Shown here: in pieces, positions 5,309-42,322 of the stretch
Position numbering within the stretch: the stretch's first letter is position 1
How the letters are laid out: each line of letters opens with the position of its first letter
DNA from: Lachnospiraceae bacterium
GTDB lineage: Bacteria; Bacillota; Clostridia; Lachnospirales; Lachnospiraceae
Direction: 5' to 3'
DNA: 44,513 nt
Assembly: GCA_017553035.1 (NCBI GenBank)
Contig: JAFZNE010000017.1
Span: forward strand, 1-44,513
Translations under genes and position numbers: made by a program
The notes under the pieces: model-generated
What the model was told of the DNA's origin: nothing
The model's input: only the letters and a program-made list of their open reading frames with translations
Databases searched by the model: none

Positions 5309-7201
5309 TTAATCATCCGTGATCTTATAGACACCGTCACATTTTGCTATTGTCCCTATGGAGCCGTCATCGTTGTACTTAAATTCGGCCGCGCAGACGC
5401 TCCTGTGGAACAGATTGCCTCCGGGCAGTTCCCCTGTATGGTAGAACAGATAAGAATGGCCTCTGAAATCGGCGATACCGGGATGATTTGTAAATGTTCC
5501 GCCCTCCTCGGTCATCAGCACGCCGCCGTAAACCCAGGGTCCGAGCGGCGAATCCGATGTGGAATATGCCAGATGCTCATTATGCTGGATCCCGTCACCC
5601 TTCTCACCCGAGAATGCGGCATAGACCATATAATACAGGCCGTTCCGTTTGTAGAACCAGGGACCTTCGGCATATGAAGTTCCGGTCATATGGCTGCCTT
5701 TCGAAAATGCTTCTTCGGTCATCGGGATCCTGCCGATCCCAACCTTCTCATCATAAGAGATCATATCTTCGTTCAATAACACATAGCGAAGTTCGGGATT
5801 TCCGAAATACAGATATGCCTGCCCGTCATCGTCGATAAATACGGTCGGATCGATATCATTCCAGTCGCCTTCATCAACAAGCGGATGCCCCAGATCTTTG
5901 TACGGTCCTTCGGTCTTGTCGGAAATGCCTACGGCAATAGCCATTCCGCCGTTTTCCTTATGGACGGGACAATACAGATAGAACTTTCCGTTACGTTCTA
6001 TACACTGCGGTGCCCATGCTCTTCCGTCCGCCCATGATATATCATCGAGTGAGAATATAACCCCGTGATCTGTCCATGTGGCCATATCTTTTGTCGAGAA
6101 ACAATACCAGTTATTCATGGTATAAAAATGATTTTCAAGGCGGTCCTCATCATGTGTCGTATACAGATAAAGAGTGTCACCGAAAACCATCGGTGCGGGA
6201 TCGGCCGTATAAGTCGTTTTTATTATGGGATTGCTGCAAAATCCGGGCTTTTCCGAATCCACATTTTGACGATCATATAAATATTTCTGATCGGCAGATT
6301 CCGTTTTACAATATACGGAACCGTCAGAATATGTTTCCAGCTTCGCGATCAGGTCTTCAAGTATATACCTTGAATCGATGTCGGTATATATCCTGATCTC
6401 GGGATTGCCCTCACAGATCTCGGACGAGGTATCATCCGCAACCCTCGGTGCCTTTACGGTTTTAAAATGTCCGCAGTCAGGGTTCAGCGCAAGCGCGATC
6501 GCAGGTGAATCACCGAGCGACCAGCTCTCTCCCTTGGTCCAGCCGGCATATTTCGACATATTATAAGTAACAAGCTGTGTAAAAAGATGCTCACCGATCC
6601 TCCCGCACGGTCTGATGCGGCGCTCTATCTCGGCAATACCTATTGTCACGGTCGTATAAACCTGCGACGGAACAAGCCACAGATCGGTCCCGCTTGACAG
6701 GATCAGGTTGGCAGCCGCTATGTCATTTCCGGCGTTGAACTCCCTGAAAGGAGCTTTACAAGGCGCTTCCCCGTGAGTTCCTATCCAGATGACCGTCATA
6801 CGTTTCTTAATCTCGGGCTGTTCCGATATCGCTGCCGCCACATTGGTGATCGCCCCCTGGCACAGTACGAACAGCGGCTTGTCATCATCCTTCATGGCTT
6901 CGTTGATTATGAATTCAACGGCCTCGTTTTTCTGATCTTTATTTTCATCCAGTGCTTCCTCCAACCCCATAAGGATAGGTACTCTCATACCCATCTCATT
7001 CAGTATCGTCCTGATCTCCGAATAACTGCGCTCGGAAGAGCCTTTCTCGTTGAAATGCTCCGCGATGATCCCCTTCACTATCAGCTTTGGACTGAGCAGT
7101 GCATGCACGATCGCAAACGGATCGTCAGCCTCACACGCAGCATCGGTATCGATAATGACTCTTAGCTTCTTGTAATCCGGAACATCAAAATGTAAACCCA
7201 T
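5309..7201 (-). CDS. Fusion of nucleoside hydrolase module and GH43 glycoside hydrolase module
   Basis: The 630-residue protein joins two enzymes in one reading frame. Residues about 12-290 match the inosine/uridine-preferring nucleoside hydrolase fold: VIIDTD (Asp18, Asp20) plus EADD (Asp26-Asp27) for calcium, NAGND (Asn156, Asp160), and SLGDS (Asp231) as the late calcium ligand. Residues about 325-625 match a five-bladed GH43 glycosidase: base Asp334 in TADPAPM, pKa-modulating Asp451 in NDIDPTVF, and acid Glu512 in YAEGPW. GH43 enzymes are mainly arabinofuranosidases and xylosidases. No signal peptide is seen, so both activities should be cytoplasmic. GGAGG precedes the ATG. The gene leads an operon with the AAA+ ATPase. 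Which substrate would need both modules is unknown. Confidence 0.85.
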   Translation of the reverse strand: MGLHFDVPDYKKLRVIIDTDAACEADDPFAIVHALLSPKLIVKGIIAEHFNEKGSSERSYSEIRTILNEMGMRVPILMGLEEALDENKDQKNEAVEFIINEAMKDDDKPLFVLCQGAITNVAAAISEQPEIKKRMTVIWIGTHGEAPCKAPFREFNAGNDIAAANLILSSGTDLWLVPSQVYTTVTIGIAEIERRIRPCGRIGEHLFTQLVTYNMSKYAGWTKGESWSLGDSPAIALALNPDCGHFKTVKAPRVADDTSSEICEGNPEIRIYTDIDSRYILEDLIAKLETYSDGSVYCKTESADQKYLYDRQNVDSEKPGFCSNPIIKTTYTADPAPMVFGDTLYLYTTHDEDRLENHFYTMNNWYCFSTKDMATWTDHGVIFSLDDISWADGRAWAPQCIERNGKFYLYCPVHKENGGMAIAVGISDKTEGPYKDLGHPLVDEGDWNDIDPTVFIDDDGQAYLYFGNPELRYVLLNEDMISYDEKVGIGRIPMTEEAFSKGSHMTGTSYAEGPWFYKRNGLYYMVYAAFSGEKGDGIQHNEHLAYSTSDSPLGPWVYGGVLMTEEGGTFTNHPGIADFRGHSYLFYHTGELPGGNLFHRSVCAAEFKYNDDGSIGTIAKCDGVYKITDD

Positions 7202-7605: not shown

Positions 7606-10600
7606 CTACACTTTCATCCAGTCAAACAGCGAAAGCTGATCGGACTCGGGCAGATCGCCGAATATATGATATTTCTCCATCAGCGCGACAAGCGAATCTC
7701 CGATCTTGCAGCGCTTCTTCAGGTCTGCCTTCGAACTGAACTTGCCGAGGCTTGCGGCATACTCGATCTGCTCGGCTGCTTTTTCGCCGAGTCCCGCAAT
7801 GGATGTCAGCGACGGCATGATCTTCCCGTCTATGATCTGGAAATGCCTTGCTTTTGCCCTGTAAATATCGATCGGCATGAAATCATAGCCTCTTGCATAC
7901 ATTTCCTGAACGATCTTCATATCTTCAAGTTCTTCGATGTCTTTATTGCCTGCGACCTTTGATGAGTCGCCGGAATCACCTGCATCCGCAGTCTCAGTTT
8001 CATCGACCGGCGCTTTTCCCTGATCGTCGCCTCCATGGATCAGCTTTTTGGTTTCCTTCATGTTCTTCAGCAGAACTTCCTTGCCCTGAGCCATCTTCTC
8101 ATAATCAAACGCCTTAGCCCTGATGCTGAAATATGCGGCATAATAAGCAAGCGGATAATTGATCTTGAAATACCCGATCCTGATAGCCATCATGATATAT
8201 GCGCAGGCATGAGCCTTCGGGAACATATACTTGATCTTCTTGCAGGACTCAAGATACCATTCCGGAACATCATGTTCACGCATTACTGCTTCAAACTCAT
8301 CCGTCAGACCCTTACCCTTACGTACCGCTTCCATGATCTTAAATGACTTGCCGGGTTCAATGCCCATCCTTATCAGATAAGTCATGATCTCATCACGTGT
8401 ACATATCGCGGTCGTCAGCGTACAATCACCGTTCTGGATGTAATACTGCGCATTACCGAGCCATACATCGGTTCCGTGCGAAAGGCCCGATATTTTCATC
8501 ATATCCGAGAAGTTCTTCGGTTTTGTATCGCGAAGCATCTGCATTACGAACTTTGTACCAAGCTCGGGAAGTCCCAGGCTGCCAAGGTCTGTTCCGTCGA
8601 TATCTTCGGGCTTGATCCCGAGTTTTTCGGTCGATGAAAACAGTGAAATAACATCTGGGTTATCCATGCGGATCGACTTGGCATCCACTCCGGTCAGATC
8701 TTCTAGCATCCTTATCATTGTCGGATCATCGTGCCCGAGAATATCAAGCTTGAGCAGGTTATGGTCGATCGAATGATAATCAAAATGCGTTGTAACGATC
8801 GGAACATCCTTGTTGGCCGGGTGCTGGACCGGAGTAAAGGTATTGATATCCTCACCTATCGGAAGGACAACGATACCGCCGGGATGCTGACCTGTAGTCC
8901 TCTTGACATCGATACAGCCGGAAGCCATCCTGAAAAGTTCGGGATCATTGACCGTCATCGCATGCTCATCGCAATATTTCCTGGCATATGCTACCGCCGT
9001 TTTATCCGCGACAGTACCAACAGTCCCTGCTTTAAAAGTCTGACCGGCTCCGAAAATAACTTCGGTATAATCATGAGCCTTGGACTGATATTCACCCGAA
9101 AAATTCAGGTCGATATCCGGCTCTTTATCGCCGTTAAACCCGAGGAATGTCTCAAAAGGTATATTCTGCCCCTGTTTGATCAGAGGTTCACCGCATACCG
9201 GACATTTCATATCGGGAAGATCGAATCCCGAGAATTGTCCGAATTCCTTTATCGTATCCGAATCAAAATCTATATAATGGCATTTCTTGCAGTAATAATG
9301 CGCCGGGAGCGGATTAACCTCGGTAATACCGGCCATCGTGGCAACAAACGACGATCCTACGGAACCACGCGAACCTACCAGATAGCCGTCTTCATTGGAT
9401 TTCCACACCAGCTTCTGCGCGATGATATACATTACCGCAAACCCGTTTTTTATGATGGAATTCAGCTCTCTGTCAAGCCTTTCGCGGATCACGGGATGGA
9501 GGTTCTCCCCATACGTCTCGGTAACCTTGCGTTCACATATCTCACGCAGCGTCTTGTCCGAATCCTCGATCACGGGCGGACACTTATCGGGTCTTACAGG
9601 CTTGATCCGGTCGCACATGTCGAATACCTTGTTTGGGTTGGTCACAACGACTTCATATGCCTTTTCATCCCCGAGGTATCTGCATTCTTCTATCATTTCC
9701 GCAGTTGTATGCAAGAATAGTGGAGCCTGTCGGTCGGCATCTTCAAATCCTTTTGAGTACATCAGTACTCTTCTGAATACCTCATCCTCCGGATTGATGA
9801 AATGCACATCACAGGTCGCTATACAAAGCTTTCCGTCAGCTTCGGCAAGTTCGACGATCTTCCTGTTGACGGTCCTTAGATCTTCATCCGAATTGACTTC
9901 CGGAAAATGATCATCTTCGATCATGTATCTGTTATTTCCGATCTGCTGGATCTCATAATAGTCGTAAAATTTTGCTATCCTTGCGATCTCTTCGGCGGGT
10001 TTGTTATGAACCACGGCTCTGAACAATTCTCCTGCTTCACACGCCGAACCTACGATTATCCCTTCCCTGTATTTTGCAAGAAGCGATTTCGGTATTCTCG
10101 GACGTCTCGAATAATAATTCAGATGGGATTCCGATACCAGCCTGTACAGATTGATCCTGCCCAGATCATTTTTAGCCAGCAGGATGATATGATACATCGG
10201 CATTTTCAACAGGTCTTCCCTGCTGTATGTACCATCTTCCTGCTTTGTGCATGTGACCGTATTCCCGTGCGATGTCGTAAAAGTCACGCTGTCAGGCTCG
10301 TCATCCACGATATATCCTTCGCACCCGTAGATGACCTTAAACTCTTCGGCCTGCTTCTTCTTATCTCCCTCGCTCTTTTTGATCAGATCATCAACTGTAT
10401 GCAGCGCATCGGTAAAGCCCTGAACCACGCCGTGATCAGTAAGCGCAATTCCTTTGTGCCCCCATTTTAACGCAGTCTTGATCAGATCTTTGACAGAAGC
10501 CACTCCGTCCATGTCGCTCATCTTCGAATGGCAATGCAGCTCGATGCGCTTAACATCGGCATTGTCCATTCTTTTTACACGAAAATCATCCTCCGGCTTG

Positions 10601-11883
10601 ATACCTTCTATATGCTGGAAAATAACATCCTTCGCATAAGAATCGTATTCAGGCACACCTTTTACGCGTAAGAATGACCCGGGTTTAAAGTTACCCTTGA
10701 TCTGCTCATATTCATCGGCTGCAAGGAATATCTTGCAGCGTATCGAATAAGTAAAATCGGTGATATCAAAACTCAGGATTATCTTGCCGTTGCGGGTTTC
10801 CTTGGTTTCCGGATCGCGAAGCACCATGCCGCGGATCACACATACGCCGATCCCTTCGTAAATATCGGAAATCGGTGAAATATCTCCTTCGGTATTTCTT
10901 GCGTAAATAACGTCCGGATCATCCTTCGGCACCTGCTTGCGGGTAAATTTGGAGCTGTTGTATCTGCCCTTTCCTTTTTCAAATTCTCCGGTTTTACCGT
11001 ATTTATCTGATTTTTGATTGTCGGCTTTTTTGGTATTATCTGCCTTTTTGTCATCGGCTGACTTTTTGTTTTTATCTGAGATAGTACTTTCAGCGGTTTT
11101 AAAAACGTTGATATCTTTGTGGTTCCCGTCAGACTGTGATATCCCGCTCGCAGATGATCCTGTGCTTTCGTTTGTTTTTCCCGTATCATTGCCATGGTTT
11201 CCTGCAGCGATACCATTTTCACCCGAATCATCGTATCCCTGATCATTTTCCGTTTGATCCTTCATTTCAGACGATGCTTCATCTGTTTCATCGGACCTCT
11301 TACCGAATAATTCCTGGGCTTCCTTAATATAGTTTTCCATGTCAGAAAAATATTTATTTGCATATTTCTGCGAATCTTCTTCAACCTTATCATGACGGAA
11401 TTCATAGGCGCAGGTAACCTTTGAGGAAAACATTTCCTCCCACATTTCTTCGATCAATGCGCACATACTTCCGACACGGTTCCTTATGATCGGCGTATCA
11501 CTGACCGCAACGGTGATCACACCGTCAGAAGCGCTTACTTTCGAATTGCGGTAAGTATCACCGAAGACCGGACTTACCGAATAGATCTCCGAATTAAGAT
11601 AATGATGGTATTTTTCCCATAACTCATTAAAGCTGCGGCCTTTTGCAAAGCTGTAGCTTATTTTAAGTCGTATGTTATTGTAACCCGAATCCATGTAACA
11701 CTTCGTCACAGAATTCTCGATCTTCCTTATGTTATCTCTGGGAATATAATCGTCCGCTTCCAGATAAAACTCCACTATGTTCGAATCTGACAGTTTTTTG
11801 TAACTCTGTATACGGACTTTTTCAAAAAGCTTTTTCAGCTTAAGATCAACATGTACCGTGTCAAAAAACTCAAAAAACAGCAC
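7606..11883 (-). CDS. polC: DNA polymerase III PolC-type alpha subunit, without the usual exonuclease insertion
   Basis: The main replicative polymerase, 1425 residues. Seen in order: N-terminal domain (1-195); an extra low-complexity Asp/Lys/Ser/Asn linker (about 195-318); OB domain (about 340-430); first half of PHP (ELHCHSKMSDMDG near 448, LTDHGVVQGF near 481); PHP remainder; SRGSVGSSF (about 838-846); zinc ribbon CKKC...CPVC (about 865-897); catalytic PDIDLNFSG (about 922-930); and C-terminal clamp motif QLSLF. In B. subtilis PolC a DEDD 3'-5' exonuclease of about 170 residues splits the PHP domain. Here about 35 unrelated residues (about 530-565) take its place. A second Asp/Gly/Ser-rich insert lies at about 1279-1322. 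Translation starts at GTG, nine bases after AAGGGG. It is last in the pyrH-polC gene run. Confidence 0.96.
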   Translation of the reverse strand: MLFFEFFDTVHVDLKLKKLFEKVRIQSYKKLSDSNIVEFYLEADDYIPRDNIRKIENSVTKCYMDSGYNNIRLKISYSFAKGRSFNELWEKYHHYLNSEIYSVSPVFGDTYRNSKVSASDGVITVAVSDTPIIRNRVGSMCALIEEMWEEMFSSKVTCAYEFRHDKVEEDSQKYANKYFSDMENYIKEAQELFGKRSDETDEASSEMKDQTENDQGYDDSGENGIAAGNHGNDTGKTNESTGSSASGISQSDGNHKDINVFKTAESTISDKNKKSADDKKADNTKKADNQKSDKYGKTGEFEKGKGRYNSSKFTRKQVPKDDPDVIYARNTEGDISPISDIYEGIGVCVIRGMVLRDPETKETRNGKIILSFDITDFTYSIRCKIFLAADEYEQIKGNFKPGSFLRVKGVPEYDSYAKDVIFQHIEGIKPEDDFRVKRMDNADVKRIELHCHSKMSDMDGVASVKDLIKTALKWGHKGIALTDHGVVQGFTDALHTVDDLIKKSEGDKKKQAEEFKVIYGCEGYIVDDEPDSVTFTTSHGNTVTCTKQEDGTYSREDLLKMPMYHIILLAKNDLGRINLYRLVSESHLNYYSRRPRIPKSLLAKYREGIIVGSACEAGELFRAVVHNKPAEEIARIAKFYDYYEIQQIGNNRYMIEDDHFPEVNSDEDLRTVNRKIVELAEADGKLCIATCDVHFINPEDEVFRRVLMYSKGFEDADRQAPLFLHTTAEMIEECRYLGDEKAYEVVVTNPNKVFDMCDRIKPVRPDKCPPVIEDSDKTLREICERKVTETYGENLHPVIRERLDRELNSIIKNGFAVMYIIAQKLVWKSNEDGYLVGSRGSVGSSFVATMAGITEVNPLPAHYYCKKCHYIDFDSDTIKEFGQFSGFDLPDMKCPVCGEPLIKQGQNIPFETFLGFNGDKEPDIDLNFSGEYQSKAHDYTEVIFGAGQTFKAGTVGTVADKTAVAYARKYCDEHAMTVNDPELFRMASGCIDVKRTTGQHPGGIVVLPIGEDINTFTPVQHPANKDVPIVTTHFDYHSIDHNLLKLDILGHDDPTMIRMLEDLTGVDAKSIRMDNPDVISLFSSTEKLGIKPEDIDGTDLGSLGLPELGTKFVMQMLRDTKPKNFSDMMKISGLSHGTDVWLGNAQYYIQNGDCTLTTAICTRDEIMTYLIRMGIEPGKSFKIMEAVRKGKGLTDEFEAVMREHDVPEWYLESCKKIKYMFPKAHACAYIMMAIRIGYFKINYPLAYYAAYFSIRAKAFDYEKMAQGKEVLLKNMKETKKLIHGGDDQGKAPVDETETADAGDSGDSSKVAGNKDIEELEDMKIVQEMYARGYDFMPIDIYRAKARHFQIIDGKIMPSLTSIAGLGEKAAEQIEYAASLGKFSSKADLKKRCKIGDSLVALMEKYHIFGDLPESDQLSLFDWMKV

Positions 11884-11971: not shown

Positions 11972-13051
11972 TCAAATCTTATCTCCGGCCATTTCGTCCA
12001 AAATACATCTAAGTTCGTCGATCAGCCATTCTTCGGGCACCTTCTTTAAGATTTCACCCTTCTTGAAAATAAGACCTTCTCCGTGTCCTCCGGCAATACC
12101 AATATCAGCTTCGCGTGCTTCTCCGGGGCCGTTTACGGCACAGCCCATGACAGCAAGCTTGATGTCCAGGTCATAACCCGCTACCAGCTTCTCAACCTTG
12201 CCCGCAAGCCCTATAAGATCGATCTGTGTTCTTCCGCATGTCGGGCAGGAAACCACCTCTATTCCCGTTTTGTTAAGGCCCAGTGACCGCAGTATCTGTT
12301 TTGCGGAACGAACTTCTTCAACGGGGTCTGCAGTCAGAGAAACACGTATAGTATCCCCTATGCCTTCGTACAGGATGATCCCGATCCCGACGGCCGATTT
12401 AATATTACCGTTAATGACCGATCCGGTTTCGGTAATGCCTACATGAAGCGGATGATCCGTCCTGTCTGCGATCAGCTCGTGTGCCTTGACCGAAGTCATG
12501 ACATCTGATGCTTTTATGCTTATCACAATATCATGAAAATCCATGGATTCAAGTATTTCCACCTGTCCGAGCGCACTTTCCGCAAGCCCCTCAGGTGTTA
12601 CTTTTCCGTATTTTTCAAGATATTTCTTTTCAAGCGATCCCGAATTAACTCCGACCCTTATCGGAACATGATGCGCCTTTGCAGCTTCCACGACCGCCTT
12701 TACGTTCTCTGTGCTCCCGATGTTTCCGGGATTGATGCGGATCTTGTCGGCACCGTTCTCGATAGCTGCAACGGCCAGCTTGTAGTCAAAATGAATATCG
12801 GCAACGATCGGTATGTCTATCTGTTTCTTTATCTCGCGGAATGCATGCGCGGCCTCCATTGTAGGAACAGCACACCTTATGATGTCACATCCTTCAGCTG
12901 TCAGCCTGCGGATCTGATCGACAGTTGAAGCAACATCCTCGGTCTTCGTATTGGTCATTGATTGTATGGCTATCCTGTTACCGCCGCCTATCTTAACCTG
13001 TCCGATGCTTATTTCATGTGACTTACGTCTTTTAATGTTGGCGTTATCCAT
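11972..13051 (-). CDS. ispG: 4-hydroxy-3-methylbut-2-enyl diphosphate synthase
   Basis: IspG (GcpE) is the iron-sulfur enzyme that turns methylerythritol cyclodiphosphate into HMBPP, the sixth step of the MEP isoprenoid pathway. The 359-residue protein has the TIM-barrel start VKIGGGNRIAIQSMTNT and the three cluster cysteines Cys269, Cys272 (SCPTCGRT) and Cys304 (MGCAVNGPGEA), with Glu311 as the fourth ligand typical of the family. Length and motifs are those of the short bacterial form. GAGG precedes the ATG. It follows rseP by 77 bases and precedes polC by 88 bases. With dxr upstream, two MEP-pathway genes share the operon. Confidence 0.97.
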   Translation of the reverse strand: MDNANIKRRKSHEISIGQVKIGGGNRIAIQSMTNTKTEDVASTVDQIRRLTAEGCDIIRCAVPTMEAAHAFREIKKQIDIPIVADIHFDYKLAVAAIENGADKIRINPGNIGSTENVKAVVEAAKAHHVPIRVGVNSGSLEKKYLEKYGKVTPEGLAESALGQVEILESMDFHDIVISIKASDVMTSVKAHELIADRTDHPLHVGITETGSVINGNIKSAVGIGIILYEGIGDTIRVSLTADPVEEVRSAKQILRSLGLNKTGIEVVSCPTCGRTQIDLIGLAGKVEKLVAGYDLDIKLAVMGCAVNGPGEAREADIGIAGGHGEGLIFKKGEILKKVPEEWLIDELRCILDEMAGDKI

Positions 13052-13128: not shown

Positions 13129-14439
13129 CTACCTGAAGAAAACATTTCTGATATCATTAAAGAATATGAATACCATAAGGATCATCAGAACTATAATGCC
13201 GATAGCGTGAACCATGCCTTCCTTCTCGGGAGGAACCGGCTTGCCGCGGATCAGCTCAATAATGATAAATATCAGTCTGCCACCGTCGAGTGCCGGTATC
13301 GGAAGCAGGTTCATGACTCCGAGGTTGGCGCTGAGCAGTATCGCCCAGTTCATGAGATTCAGGATTACATAGAGAATTCCGTCGCTCTTCGATTGTTCAA
13401 CCGTATTCTCCAGTTCCGAAACTATCCTCACCGGTCCGCCCAGATCATCAGATTTGAGCTTGCCCCTGAACAGGAGTCCGAGACTCTTGACAGTATTTAC
13501 GATCCAGTAACGTACTTCAATAAGCGAGTACTTGATAACTTTAAGCGGAGAAGTCTTCTCCCTTACGTTTGCATTGTATGTAAAACCGGATGAATAGCTT
13601 TCAACGTATCCCGGTACCACTTCAAGATCGAAAGTCGCTCCGCCTCTTTCAAAAGTGACCTTTAAGGCGCTGCCGTCGAGCGGATTCATTGTAATATATT
13701 CGTTAAACTCTTTTCCGCTCGAGATCGTCTTTCCGTTGATCCCAACGATCACATCATCGGCTTTCACTCCGGCCGCCTCAAAAACGCCGCCGCTCACGAG
13801 TGAGCTTATTTTACAGGGATTTTCATCCGCGTTATAGTAAAACCCGAGCTTGTACGGGTTGGACATTATCGGAGTAAGAGTTGTTGAATATTCCTCACCG
13901 TTTCTCAGATATTTAACTTCAACACTATCCTGCCCCAGCTCGTTAAATGTAAAATACGCTGCCAGATCCCTGCCGATGGAAACATTTTTATTATCAAAGC
14001 TTGTAATAATATCTCCGCGCTCAAGACCTGCGATCTCGGCCGCTCCGCCGGGGGTGACCGATGTAACGTAAGCAGGGTCATATCCGACAATGCTTATGAC
14101 GATGATCGCCACAACAAATGCCAGTATGAAATTGAAGAACGGGCCGGCAAATATCGTCGCGAGCCTTGCCCACGGTCCTTTCGACGTAAATGCTCTTTCG
14201 TCATCGGTTACCTCTCCGTTCTCACCGAGCATTTTGCATGCTCCGCCGAAGAGGATCAGCCTGATGCTGTACTCCGTTTCTCCGATCTTGAATTTACACA
14301 ATTTCGGTCCGAATCCCACCTGAAATTCCGGAACCGCGATCCCATTTGCCTTGGCAACGATCAAATGTCCGAACTCATGGAACACGATGATAATACAGAA
14401 TATCAGTATTCCTATGAGTATGCTGACTACGGTGCTCAT
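13129..14439 (-). CDS. rseP: RseP/RasP site-2 zinc metalloprotease
   Basis: An intramembrane protease that cuts transmembrane anti-sigma factors and leftover signal peptides. The 436-residue protein has the active-site HEFGH (His21, Glu22, His25) in the first membrane helix and the late NLLPIPALDGGRL segment whose Asp completes the zinc site. Between them are two PDZ-like domains: one starting near PAYVTSVTPGGAAEIAG, the second near CKISSLVSGGVFEAAG. Two PDZ domains make it longer than the single-PDZ Bacillus RasP. The C-terminus is hydrophobic and ends with a membrane helix. The start is supported by AAAGGA nine bases upstream. It sits 21 bases after dxr in the conserved dxr-rseP-ispG order. 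Confidence 0.95.
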   Translation of the reverse strand: MSTVVSILIGILIFCIIIVFHEFGHLIVAKANGIAVPEFQVGFGPKLCKFKIGETEYSIRLILFGGACKMLGENGEVTDDERAFTSKGPWARLATIFAGPFFNFILAFVVAIIVISIVGYDPAYVTSVTPGGAAEIAGLERGDIITSFDNKNVSIGRDLAAYFTFNELGQDSVEVKYLRNGEEYSTTLTPIMSNPYKLGFYYNADENPCKISSLVSGGVFEAAGVKADDVIVGINGKTISSGKEFNEYITMNPLDGSALKVTFERGGATFDLEVVPGYVESYSSGFTYNANVREKTSPLKVIKYSLIEVRYWIVNTVKSLGLLFRGKLKSDDLGGPVRIVSELENTVEQSKSDGILYVILNLMNWAILLSANLGVMNLLPIPALDGGRLIFIIIELIRGKPVPPEKEGMVHAIGIIVLMILMVFIFFNDIRNVFFR

Positions 14440-14460: not shown

Positions 14461-15660
14461 TTATTTCTTGTAAATTATTTTTTCTCCGGCCGTTTCATAT
14501 GTCCATCTTTCGGTTTCCAGGATCTCCTCCAGAGACGGCTCCGGAATGTTTGTATGCCTGTCCATACAATATCGGATCATATCATAAATATCGGTAAAAC
14601 CGATCTGTCCGTTAAGGAATCTTGCTACCGCAAATTCGTTGGCCGCGTTAAATACGGTACATATACTTCCGCCCTGCCTGATCGCATCCAGTCCCAGACG
14701 CAGACCGCGGAAAGTATCATAATCGGGCTTATCGAACTCAAGGCCGCTTAGTTCTAAAAGATCCAGCTTCTTTTCATTTTCATCAAGATGTTTCCTGTCC
14801 GGGTAATACAGTGCATACCTGATCGGAAGCCTCATATCGGGCAGTCCGAGCTGTGCTATTATCGATCCGTCATGAAATTGCACCGCAGAATGTATAATGC
14901 TCTTCGGCTGGATCAAAATTCTTATCCGGTCCGGTTCAATTCCGAACAGCCACCTGGCCTCCATAACTTCAAGAGCCTTGTTAACCATCGTTGCCGAATC
15001 GATGGTGATCTTGTTACCCATATTCCAATTTGGATGTTTCAGCGCATCTGCCGCTGTCTTGGTCCTGAGCTCGTCATATGTCATTCCTCTGAACGGCCCA
15101 CCGGATGCGGTAAGCAGGATACAGTCAATATCTGCATTGTACGGATAACTCCCGTCCGGTCCCTTATGTCCCTGAAGGCACTGGAATATCGCAGAATGTT
15201 CGCTGTCGATAGGAAACAGCCTGACATTCTTTTCTGCCAGCAGCGGCATGATCAGATGGCCTGCGGTCACCAGTGTTTCTTTATTGGCGAGTGCAACATC
15301 ACATCCTGAATTGATCGCCGCAATGGTAGGACGTATTCCAATCATTCCGACAAGCGCGGTAACAACCAGATCGTTTTCGGGATCCGATGCCAGTTCGATC
15401 AGGCCTTCCATACCGCTCAGCACATTGACGCCTGTGTCCCCAATCTTTGCCTTGAGTTCTTCGGCTTTATCCTCATCATATACGCAGACTTTCTCGGGTT
15501 TAAAGCATCTGATCTGTTCTTCCAGCAGCCCGATGCTGCTCTTGGCAGCAAGCGATCTTATCCTGAACCCTCCGTATGTCCGGACGGTCTCTAAAGTCTG
15601 CCTTCCGATCGATCCCGTCGACCCCAGGATGCACAGATTGCGTATGCCGGCGTTCTTCAT
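14461..15660 (-). CDS. dxr: 1-deoxy-D-xylulose 5-phosphate reductoisomerase
   Basis: Dxr makes methylerythritol 4-phosphate from deoxyxylulose phosphate with NADPH, the committed step of the MEP pathway. The 399-residue protein opens with the NADPH-binding GSTGSIG (13-19) and carries ALANKETLVTAG, the metal/substrate motif PIDSEHSAIFQCL, and LTASGGPFR. Length fits the family. The Rossmann strand begins at residue 8, so the annotated ATG must be close to the true start even though the nearest Shine-Dalgarno-like sequence is rather far upstream. A 447-base gap with a large palindrome separates it from cdsA, which suggests the operon may be divided or re-initiated here. Confidence 0.97.
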   Translation of the reverse strand: MKNAGIRNLCILGSTGSIGRQTLETVRTYGGFRIRSLAAKSSIGLLEEQIRCFKPEKVCVYDEDKAEELKAKIGDTGVNVLSGMEGLIELASDPENDLVVTALVGMIGIRPTIAAINSGCDVALANKETLVTAGHLIMPLLAEKNVRLFPIDSEHSAIFQCLQGHKGPDGSYPYNADIDCILLTASGGPFRGMTYDELRTKTAADALKHPNWNMGNKITIDSATMVNKALEVMEARWLFGIEPDRIRILIQPKSIIHSAVQFHDGSIIAQLGLPDMRLPIRYALYYPDRKHLDENEKKLDLLELSGLEFDKPDYDTFRGLRLGLDAIRQGGSICTVFNAANEFAVARFLNGQIGFTDIYDMIRYCMDRHTNIPEPSLEEILETERWTYETAGEKIIYKK

Positions 15661-40378: not shown

Positions 40379-42322
40379 TCATTCCTTTTCCTGATAAATA
40401 ATTTCATCGGTATACTTTCGTTCCATATCATGGCGTTTTTTACGATTCTCAACAGAATCAAAGATGATAGAAAAATCATAATCTTCCGGATACAGCTCCT
40501 CTGCTTTCACATGAAGCTTTACACGTTTATGGTTGATCCATATCTTACGGCCCGCTATCTGGACTCTCAGTACTCCCTTATCATTTTCCGGCTCGCAGAC
40601 AATGCCTATCTTCTTGTCGGGATATACCATTACGCTGTCACCTATCTTGAATTGCGGTGTCAGCTTCGAGATATTTACCGGTTTTTTGACCCTTTGGATC
40701 CTCTTGTTTTCACTCTTGGATATATCGCTGTTTTTCCTGAAGCTGTATGTTTTCACAGCTTCCTTACCATATGCGGCTTCTACCGCCACCTTCAGCATGT
40801 TTTCCGGCATCCCGAGACGGTCGGCAATATAGAAGGCACAGCTCTCTCCCGCTTCTCCGATCACCATTTTGTACGTAGGCATCAGAGTTTCCCTGTCAAA
40901 AGTCATTCTGGCATTTATGATACCTTCATGTTTTGCCGCATATTCCTTGATCTCGGGATAATGGGTCGTGACCAGGAAGTTGGCCCCGCTTTTACGCAGT
41001 TCTTCAAGAATGGCTGTTGCTATTCCCATGCCTTCGGCCGGGTCGGTTCCGGAGCCCAGCTCGTCCATTATGACAAGACTTTCCCTGTTCACTTTCCGAA
41101 GTATCTCAAGTACATTTTTGATATGTGCTGAAAATGTAGACAGATTTTCGGAAATATTCTGTCCGTCTCCGATATCGCTCAGGTATCCCGAATTCATGCA
41201 GATATCCGCTTTACTGCATGGGACATGAAGTCCGCACTGGGCCATATAACTTGTTAACATCACCGTCTTTATTGATACAGTCTTGCCTCCCGTGTTCGGT
41301 CCGGTAATAATTATCCCACGTACCGGTTCCTTATTTTCTACACTAAAGCCAAGATTAAAATCGAGCGGAACATTTATATTCCTGTCCATCAGCGGATGTC
41401 TGGCTTCTTTTAAGATTATCCTTCTGTCAAGATTGATCTTCGGTTCCACGCAGTCAAGATCTATGCTCAGTTTGCCTTTCGAAAATATGAAATCCAGTTT
41501 TTCTATCATTCTCATATTTTCTTCCATAACAGGAATGGCATCCGATACAAGCGCGGAAAGGGTGTAGAGGATCCTGTAGACCTCGTTTTCTTCTTCCACA
41601 CGCAGCAGCTGCAGTTCCTCATAGTACTTTGAAAGCACGGCAGGTTCGATAAAAACAGTGTTTCCCGTCGCAGACTTATCTATCACGCTTCCGGGGATCC
41701 TGAAACGATATTCCTTTTTCACGGGAACACATACTCTTCCGTTCCTTAATGTATAGAAAGTATCTGCCATGGAGTCCCTGTTGTTCCTTATGACCTGCTC
41801 CGCCTTCTGTTTTATATTCTCCTCGGCATGGGTGATCCGGATCCTTATATCATGCAGGACGTTAGAAGCATGATCATCCACTTCTTCATATCTGATCTGC
41901 CTGCATATATCCTCCCGCAGATCCTTCAATTCATCCAGATTTTCATCATAATATGCCAACGGATTTTCATACTGCCTGCCTCTTGTCAGGTAATCCTTTA
42001 ATCTCCCCGCTACCACAAGTACCTTTTCCACACGTTCAAGCTGATACGGAGTAAGACACGCTCCTTTTCCTGCTTCCGTCAATATCTTTCTGATCTCGGT
42101 CACATCCTGCAGCGGAGGGTTTCCCAGATTTTCTATCATCTTCCTGCTGTCGGTTGTATCACGAAGATTATTGTTCAGTTCTGCTTCGTCAAGGAATATA
42201 GACATGTTCGCTATATCCTCTTTGGCAGCACCCGTAACCGCAAGCTGCGCCCATATTTCTTTTATCTTGTCAAATTCTATCTGTTGTTCTGTATTCATTT
42301 CTGTATGATCTCCATTATTCAT
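40379..42322 (-). CDS. MutS2-like ATPase lacking the Smr nuclease domain
   Basis: A 647-residue member of the MutS2 branch. Residues about 90-330 are the lever/clamp region (RIPGSVIDKSATGNTVFIEP). The ATPase follows: Walker A GPNTGGKTVS (341-350), STFSAHIKNV, Walker B LVIMDELGSGTDP (416-428), and TTHYPEIKEYA. A KOW-like beta domain (about 560-603) ends the chain. Typical MutS2 is near 780-790 residues and ends in an Smr endonuclease domain; that is absent. MutS2 acts on branched DNA or stalled ribosomes; this protein may keep the ATP-driven clamp but not cut. The start may be at 42322 or at the ATG ending at 42298, which has GGAG 11 bases upstream. It follows the methyltransferase gene by six bases. 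Confidence 0.82.
   Translation of the reverse strand: MNNGDHTEMNTEQQIEFDKIKEIWAQLAVTGAAKEDIANMSIFLDEAELNNNLRDTTDSRKMIENLGNPPLQDVTEIRKILTEAGKGACLTPYQLERVEKVLVVAGRLKDYLTRGRQYENPLAYYDENLDELKDLREDICRQIRYEEVDDHASNVLHDIRIRITHAEENIKQKAEQVIRNNRDSMADTFYTLRNGRVCVPVKKEYRFRIPGSVIDKSATGNTVFIEPAVLSKYYEELQLLRVEEENEVYRILYTLSALVSDAIPVMEENMRMIEKLDFIFSKGKLSIDLDCVEPKINLDRRIILKEARHPLMDRNINVPLDFNLGFSVENKEPVRGIIITGPNTGGKTVSIKTVMLTSYMAQCGLHVPCSKADICMNSGYLSDIGDGQNISENLSTFSAHIKNVLEILRKVNRESLVIMDELGSGTDPAEGMGIATAILEELRKSGANFLVTTHYPEIKEYAAKHEGIINARMTFDRETLMPTYKMVIGEAGESCAFYIADRLGMPENMLKVAVEAAYGKEAVKTYSFRKNSDISKSENKRIQRVKKPVNISKLTPQFKIGDSVMVYPDKKIGIVCEPENDKGVLRVQIAGRKIWINHKRVKLHVKAEELYPEDYDFSIIFDSVENRKKRHDMERKYTDEIIYQEKE

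Follow-up and report, generated by a model that had tools for sequence, protein, structure and literature searches.

The polC gene of the window (the whole 44,513-nucleotide stretch analysed here, which is contig C109 of its source assembly) was found to encode a PolC-type DNA polymerase III alpha subunit that lacks the DEDDh exonuclease carried by most of its relatives within the PHP domain. This absence, read correctly from the letters by a first-pass annotation, is real and non-artefactual, and the window PolC belongs to an already published class of exonuclease-less (exo-less) PolC variants. The gene lies at 7606..11883 on the minus strand and encodes 1425 residues in a single open reading frame with a GTG start and no internal stops. 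The intact frame noted at first pass thus holds for the gene as a whole, including positions 10186-10329, where the DNA and its translation (YGCEGYIVDD...KMPMYHI) are stop-free. The Pfam domains detected were: (i) DNA_pol3_a_NI at residues 2-60; (ii) an OB fold at residues 350-414; (iii) PHP at residues 448-640; and (iv) the Pol3 alpha, finger, and HHH_6 domains. The protein scored 1377.9 bits against NCBIfam NF001688 (cut-off 873) and 1263.6 bits against TIGR01405 (cut-off 1043.45), passing both, and its top PDB matches were 3f2b (G. kaustophilus) and 9qpc (E. faecium). No RNase_T or DEDDh domain was listed anywhere in the 1425 residues by the Pfam scan at E <= 1, a listing thinner than nominal as the HMMER filters discard most matches above about 0.1; a DEDD domain displaced to another part of PolC, which the first-pass annotation had named as a refutation, was not found.

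The PHP domain is instead interrupted by a short linker. Its first part (from residue 448; 10318..10542, minus strand) carries the ligands H450, H452, D459, H484, and E522, while the part after the linker (9802..10191, minus strand) carries H565, C615, D692, and H694. Between E522 and H565 lie 42 residues (523-564; 10192..10317, minus strand) at the site of the relatives' DEDDh exonuclease, and within them the left and right flanks of the missing exonuclease can still be recognised. The junction had been placed at 10185-10300, which corresponds to PolC residues 529-566 and is the right location. The same E-H ligand spacing is 212-214 residues in 149 of 163 exonuclease-bearing (exo-bearing) PolCs (range 196-243), so about 171 residues are absent from the window PolC, in agreement with the insert of about 170 residues estimated earlier. 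At the C-terminus, residues 1416-1420 (7624..7638, minus strand) read QLSLF, a clamp-binding pentapeptide of the type described in PMC3919608. On its upstream side polC is adjoined by ispG (GcpE; 11972..13051), followed by an rseP-like M50 peptidase gene with PDZ domains (13129..14439) and dxr, encoding DXP reductoisomerase (14461..15660), all on the minus strand. Elsewhere in the window, a 630-residue open reading frame at 5309-7201 encodes a nucleoside hydrolase domain and, after it, a domain of glycosyl hydrolase family 43, which seemed an unusual fusion.

The exo-less state was found to be shared by the whole genus (24 of 24 genomes). The linker spans 37-42 residues in the 23 genus PolCs measured, window included; in the 24th genome (G003) a profile match crosses the linker, the locus sequence itself lying outside the linker measurements. 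Three of the genus relatives are Lachnospiraceae MAGs (isolates Horse_feces265, RUI154, and RUI209). An assembly or binning artefact might have been suspected from the state of the source assembly (2.52 Mb in 145 contigs, 84% complete); however, it is ruled out by the 23 further genus genomes of the same architecture, with a linker that can be aligned in the 22 of these measured, and retains next to no probability. The possibility raised at first pass of a deletion limited to one assembly is answered by the same count. Beyond the genus, RNase_T was located within the PolC frame in all 13 other family genomes sampled, such that both this sampling and the PolC tree nest the exo-less genus among exo-bearing relatives. 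Two genomes labelled Lachnospiraceae by NCBI also encode exo-less PolCs, namely Cuneatibacter sp. NSJ-177 (L042; linker of 21 residues) and Epulopiscium sp. Nuni2H (L044; linker of 16 residues). Across the class, the exo-less form was confirmed in at least 44 of the 392 other genomes sampled, with linkers of 16-57 residues. The phylum sample comprised 299 genomes, from which 40 PolCs were taken non-randomly among the matches listed, by frame length and match span; in this subset a spanning match or a frame of 1,092-1,301 residues always marked an exo-less PolC (29 of 29; linkers of 12-39 residues), and the 11 PolCs whose frames measured 1,405-1,450 residues were without exception exo-bearing. 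Before counting we dropped L039-L041 (same genomes as L003, L021, and L022), L142 (a duplicate of the window), and L228, L051, and L112 (first PHP half missing).

In a PolC tree of 103 rows, built by a quick method with the linker columns left out, SH-aLRT as the only support, and L090 and a few short rows excluded, the exo-less rows require three changes, all of which are forced by well-supported branches. Larger trees gave nine changes on 221 rows (three forced) and 12 changes on 85 rows (four forced); these trees are unrooted, and the change counts alone therefore do not separate gain from loss.

Exo-less PolCs were catalogued in 2013 by Timinskas et al. (PMC3919608), which bears out the caution of the first-pass annotation that surveys might already hold such forms. 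That survey reports 6% of PolCs without the exonuclease (16% for PolC+DnaE1 systems, its Table 2), places them in Clostridia and Negativicutes where PolC is paired with DnaE1, one extra Thermotogae copy excepted, and describes the PHP metal sites as conserved, raising the question of whether the main replicase in that case is DnaE1. The window PolC likewise has a PHP domain without the exonuclease insertion and a clostridial host with a second polymerase. The DnaE-type match of the source genome (G000:C115) has intact PHP ligands, and judging by this PHP site the second polymerase is probably DnaE1 rather than DnaE3. In its OB, PHP, polymerase core, HhH, and clamp motif, its missing exonuclease, and its DnaE partner, the window PolC shows no essential difference from the exo-less PolCs described in PMC3919608. 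The present analysis adds the genus-wide state in one Lachnospiraceae genus, the excision flanks, the genome-wide RNase_T counts, and the survey of uncultured genomes; in the open-access literature searched, no paper was found on excision flanks or on genomes devoid of any RNase_T in this group. Compared with the canonical PolCs of B. subtilis, G. kaustophilus (3F2B), and E. faecium (9QPC), the domain order is the same, whereas the DEDDh domain of the PHP loop is absent here. The exonuclease was removed from the 3F2B construct for crystallisation (PMC12592400), and this construct thus resembles the natural window PolC. The repeated natural losses, and the PolCs with a dead domain described below, are a warning not to define PolC by its RNase_T insert, as was done in one in-silico antibiotic-spectrum study (PMC11963600).

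The genus linkers were found to retain residues that flank the exonuclease in exo-bearing PolCs, Y(L/I)VDD..D.VT..KG on the left and YS.ED(I/L)..MP. on the right. When scored against position profiles of the left and right insertion flanks built from 72 exo-bearing PolCs, all 23 genus linkers outscored each of 2000 shuffles of themselves, whereas 37% of shuffles reached the score of the Cuneatibacter linker (L042), and that of L044 was too short for both-flank scoring. By the right flank alone (p <= 0.01), 22 of the 23 genus linkers carried the signal, as did 18 of the 66 remaining exo-less linkers long enough to score, L042 among these. The retained flanks fit an old in-frame excision in the genus ancestor, which would have lost the DEDDh exonuclease from its PHP loop in this way. 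Judged by this right-flank signal, excision is clear in the genus, in Cuneatibacter L042, and in part of the membership of families f26, f30, and f36; in most other exo-less PolCs it is not clear, and the domain may be primitively absent. The catalytic D-E-D-H-D set is intact in 160 of 163 exo-bearing PolCs. Three Lachnospiraceae-type PolCs (L045, L066, and L072) carry a full-length DEDDh domain in which these five positions read STESR, REQHY, and EKAEA (5, 3, and 5 of five replaced, respectively), with the PHP ligands intact. These domains are apparently dead, counter to a statement in PMC12926913. L045 and L072 are sisters in the PolC tree and L066 stands separately. An inactivated full-length domain is a possible step preceding excision; none of the three adjoins the genus of the window, and such a step therefore occurs without being shown for this genus.

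With the built-in domain gone, the first-pass annotation had offered three consequences, a separate exonuclease, proofreading by the PHP domain, or copying of lower fidelity; this list can be narrowed in part. We consider proofreading by PHP in place of the lost DEDDh domain the leading explanation and, on the sequence evidence, somewhat probable. It is ranked first because the nine PHP ligands are intact in both PolC and DnaE1 and because M. tuberculosis DnaE1 provides a precedent. The window PolC carries the nine-ligand motif of PHP exonucleases, HHDHEH[C/H]DH (PMC12926913), and its complete set (HHDHEHCDH) was present in 98 of 98 exo-less PolCs (69 plus 29, window included) and in the DnaE1 of all 17 genomes examined, 11 of them from the genus; as far as ligands go, the PHP option of the earlier reading stands in both polymerases. 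M. tuberculosis DnaE1 has an active proofreading exonuclease whose trinuclear zinc centre is coordinated by nine residues of this kind, and its DNA groove is lined by the loop that in PolC receives the exonuclease insertion (PMC5636811). The two proteins are alike in these ligands, and in both E and H are joined by a loop, not a domain, with 33 residues in DnaE1 (E73-H107, PMC5636811) versus 42 in the window PolC; the residual PolC loop is of a similar order of length to that of DnaE1-type PHP domains with active exonucleases. They differ in that the protein studied here is of the PolC family and its PHP exonuclease activity is putative. In the proposed mechanism, the PHP site of the window PolC would be catalytically active, and its trinuclear metal site together with that of DnaE1 would proofread in place of DnaQ.

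The conservation of the ligands speaks to a narrower point. They are equally complete in 163 of 163 exo-bearing PolCs, so their conservation did not arise in response to exonuclease loss and may be structural; it argues for retention of the PHP site but not for a dependence of the loss on that site. The proposition that the exonuclease is lost only where PHP is intact was likewise uninformative, as PHP is intact in all readable PolCs (98 exo-less and 163 exo-bearing). PolC+DnaE3 systems, in which PHP sites are often inactive (PMC12926913), were represented by no identified case in this comparison. In G. kaustophilus PolC, one PHP ligand is mutated and there is no PHP exonuclease activity (PMC5636811), and a non-exhaustive search of the open-access literature found no PHP activity assay for any PolC. 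Sequence has led to the suspicion that PolC proofreads through its PHP domain, an activity masked by the built-in DEDDh domain; natural exo-less PolCs in genomes with no other RNase_T match permit a direct test, which is where their value lies. Recurrent loss of the domain, together with the three PolCs in which it is dead, suggests that DnaQ proofreading can be dispensed with when PHP is intact. A broader reading, that DEDDh proofreading has disappeared entirely from several clostridial lineages, leaving no RNase_T domain in PolC or elsewhere in the genome, with PolC and DnaE1 proofreading only by their PHP zinc sites, is tentative and seems to us a little less probable than its opposite.

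In E. coli, epsilon works in trans with alpha, and a stand-alone DnaQ-like exonuclease might act on the exo-less PolC in the same manner. The first-pass annotation had seen no DnaQ-like gene nearby, and a search of the whole source genome for RNase_T (PF00929) was similarly empty; as this genome is 84% complete, the absence is provisional and a stand-alone exonuclease may be unassembled. RNase_T was also missing from 15 of the 24 genus genomes, the source included, among them G006 (100% complete) and G009 (99%), and from 31 of 44 exo-less class genomes, including the single-contig G232 and G400. The separate exonuclease envisaged earlier thus lacks an RNase_T candidate in these genomes, while the remaining nine of the genus each gave an RNase_T match (partial in G018). 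Of 29 exo-less genomes outside the class, 22 had some RNase_T, with several of the matches falling in frames of 870-980 residues, and seven had none; the same search gave matches in 10 of 14 control genomes. When exo-less and exo-bearing genomes were compared for RNase_T beyond PolC's own, with genomes that are not independent and an exo-bearing count made by hand from the listing, the pooled frequencies were the same (35/73 versus 23/47; p = 1). Within class and family the exo-less genomes had fewer (13/44 versus 18/36; p = 0.07), which counts against action in trans, and outside the class they had more (22/29 versus 5/11; p = 0.13), which counts in its favour. Stand-alone RNase_T copies therefore do not compensate overall, the strata being opposite in direction and neither significant. 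A trans-acting exonuclease is quite unlikely on this balance, even with the observation that four of five stand-alone proteins scanned bear a topoisomerase-type zinc ribbon, a possible DNA guide. In four genus loci (L119, L131, L132, and L136) the stand-alone RNase_T is fused to such a ribbon (PF01396), making it a candidate trans proofreader there.

A Pol I-type exonuclease domain (DNA_pol_A_exo1) was found neither in the source genome nor in five of six further genus genomes, G018 having a sub-threshold match, by a search that gave matches in eight of 14 controls, B. subtilis not among them. It was also missing from three exo-bearing family genomes and from four of five exo-less class genomes. 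The RNase_T-free, single-contig G232 has such a match; single-contig G400 has no match to either profile, so neither domain is present there.

These empty searches for RNase_T and Pol I-type exonucleases in the source genome are what would be expected if proofreading were not replaced at all, with a lower intrinsic fidelity tolerated through reliance on base selection and mismatch repair. MutS_V proteins were found in 18 of 18 genomes searched, which counts in favour of this reading; against it, the strong MutS match seen in the other 17 is missing from the source genome, perhaps through incompleteness. Its best match (E of 7.4e-38) is a 647-residue open reading frame of the window at 40379-42322, compared with E of 3.2e-82 or better in the other 17 genomes; the shortfall may be a gap in the 84% complete assembly. 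Against low fidelity stand the complete PHP site, the age of a state common to 24 genus genomes, and a PolC divergence that is not raised relative to DnaE1. In addition, B. subtilis is made hypermutator by a proofreading-deficient polC allele in PMC11890065, and in the model of that study most of the hypermutator's mutations come from conditions that saturate mismatch repair. We regard an absence of replacement proofreading as fairly unlikely, and PHP proofreading as the preferred reading.

An idea raised and discussed in PMC3919608 is that most replication has passed to DnaE1, a demotion of PolC that would leave the PolC exonuclease unneeded. A DnaE1-type protein with an intact PHP site is indeed present, but PolC retains its clamp motif and adjoins dxr-rseP-ispG, and its divergence does not suggest demotion. 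The PolC/DnaE1 distance ratio had a median of 0.86 in the genus (55 non-independent pairs, range 0.69-1.62) and 0.92 in exo-bearing family members (15 non-independent pairs, range 0.81-1.11), which indicates no average relaxation of PolC relative to DnaE1. A loss of constraint on PolC is thus unsupported by these distances, and demotion is highly improbable.

Additional polymerase copies were also observed in some genomes. In one genus genome, a second, exo-bearing PolC (L134; G012:C82) lies in pieces over several frames beside the exo-less PolC, with contamination possible. Extra, shorter PolC-like polymerases occur besides the main PolC at G010:C225, G004:C9, G027:C57, and G737:C9 (frames of 739-942 residues), and in G027 an RNase_T match falls in a 930-residue frame just upstream of the extra polymerase.
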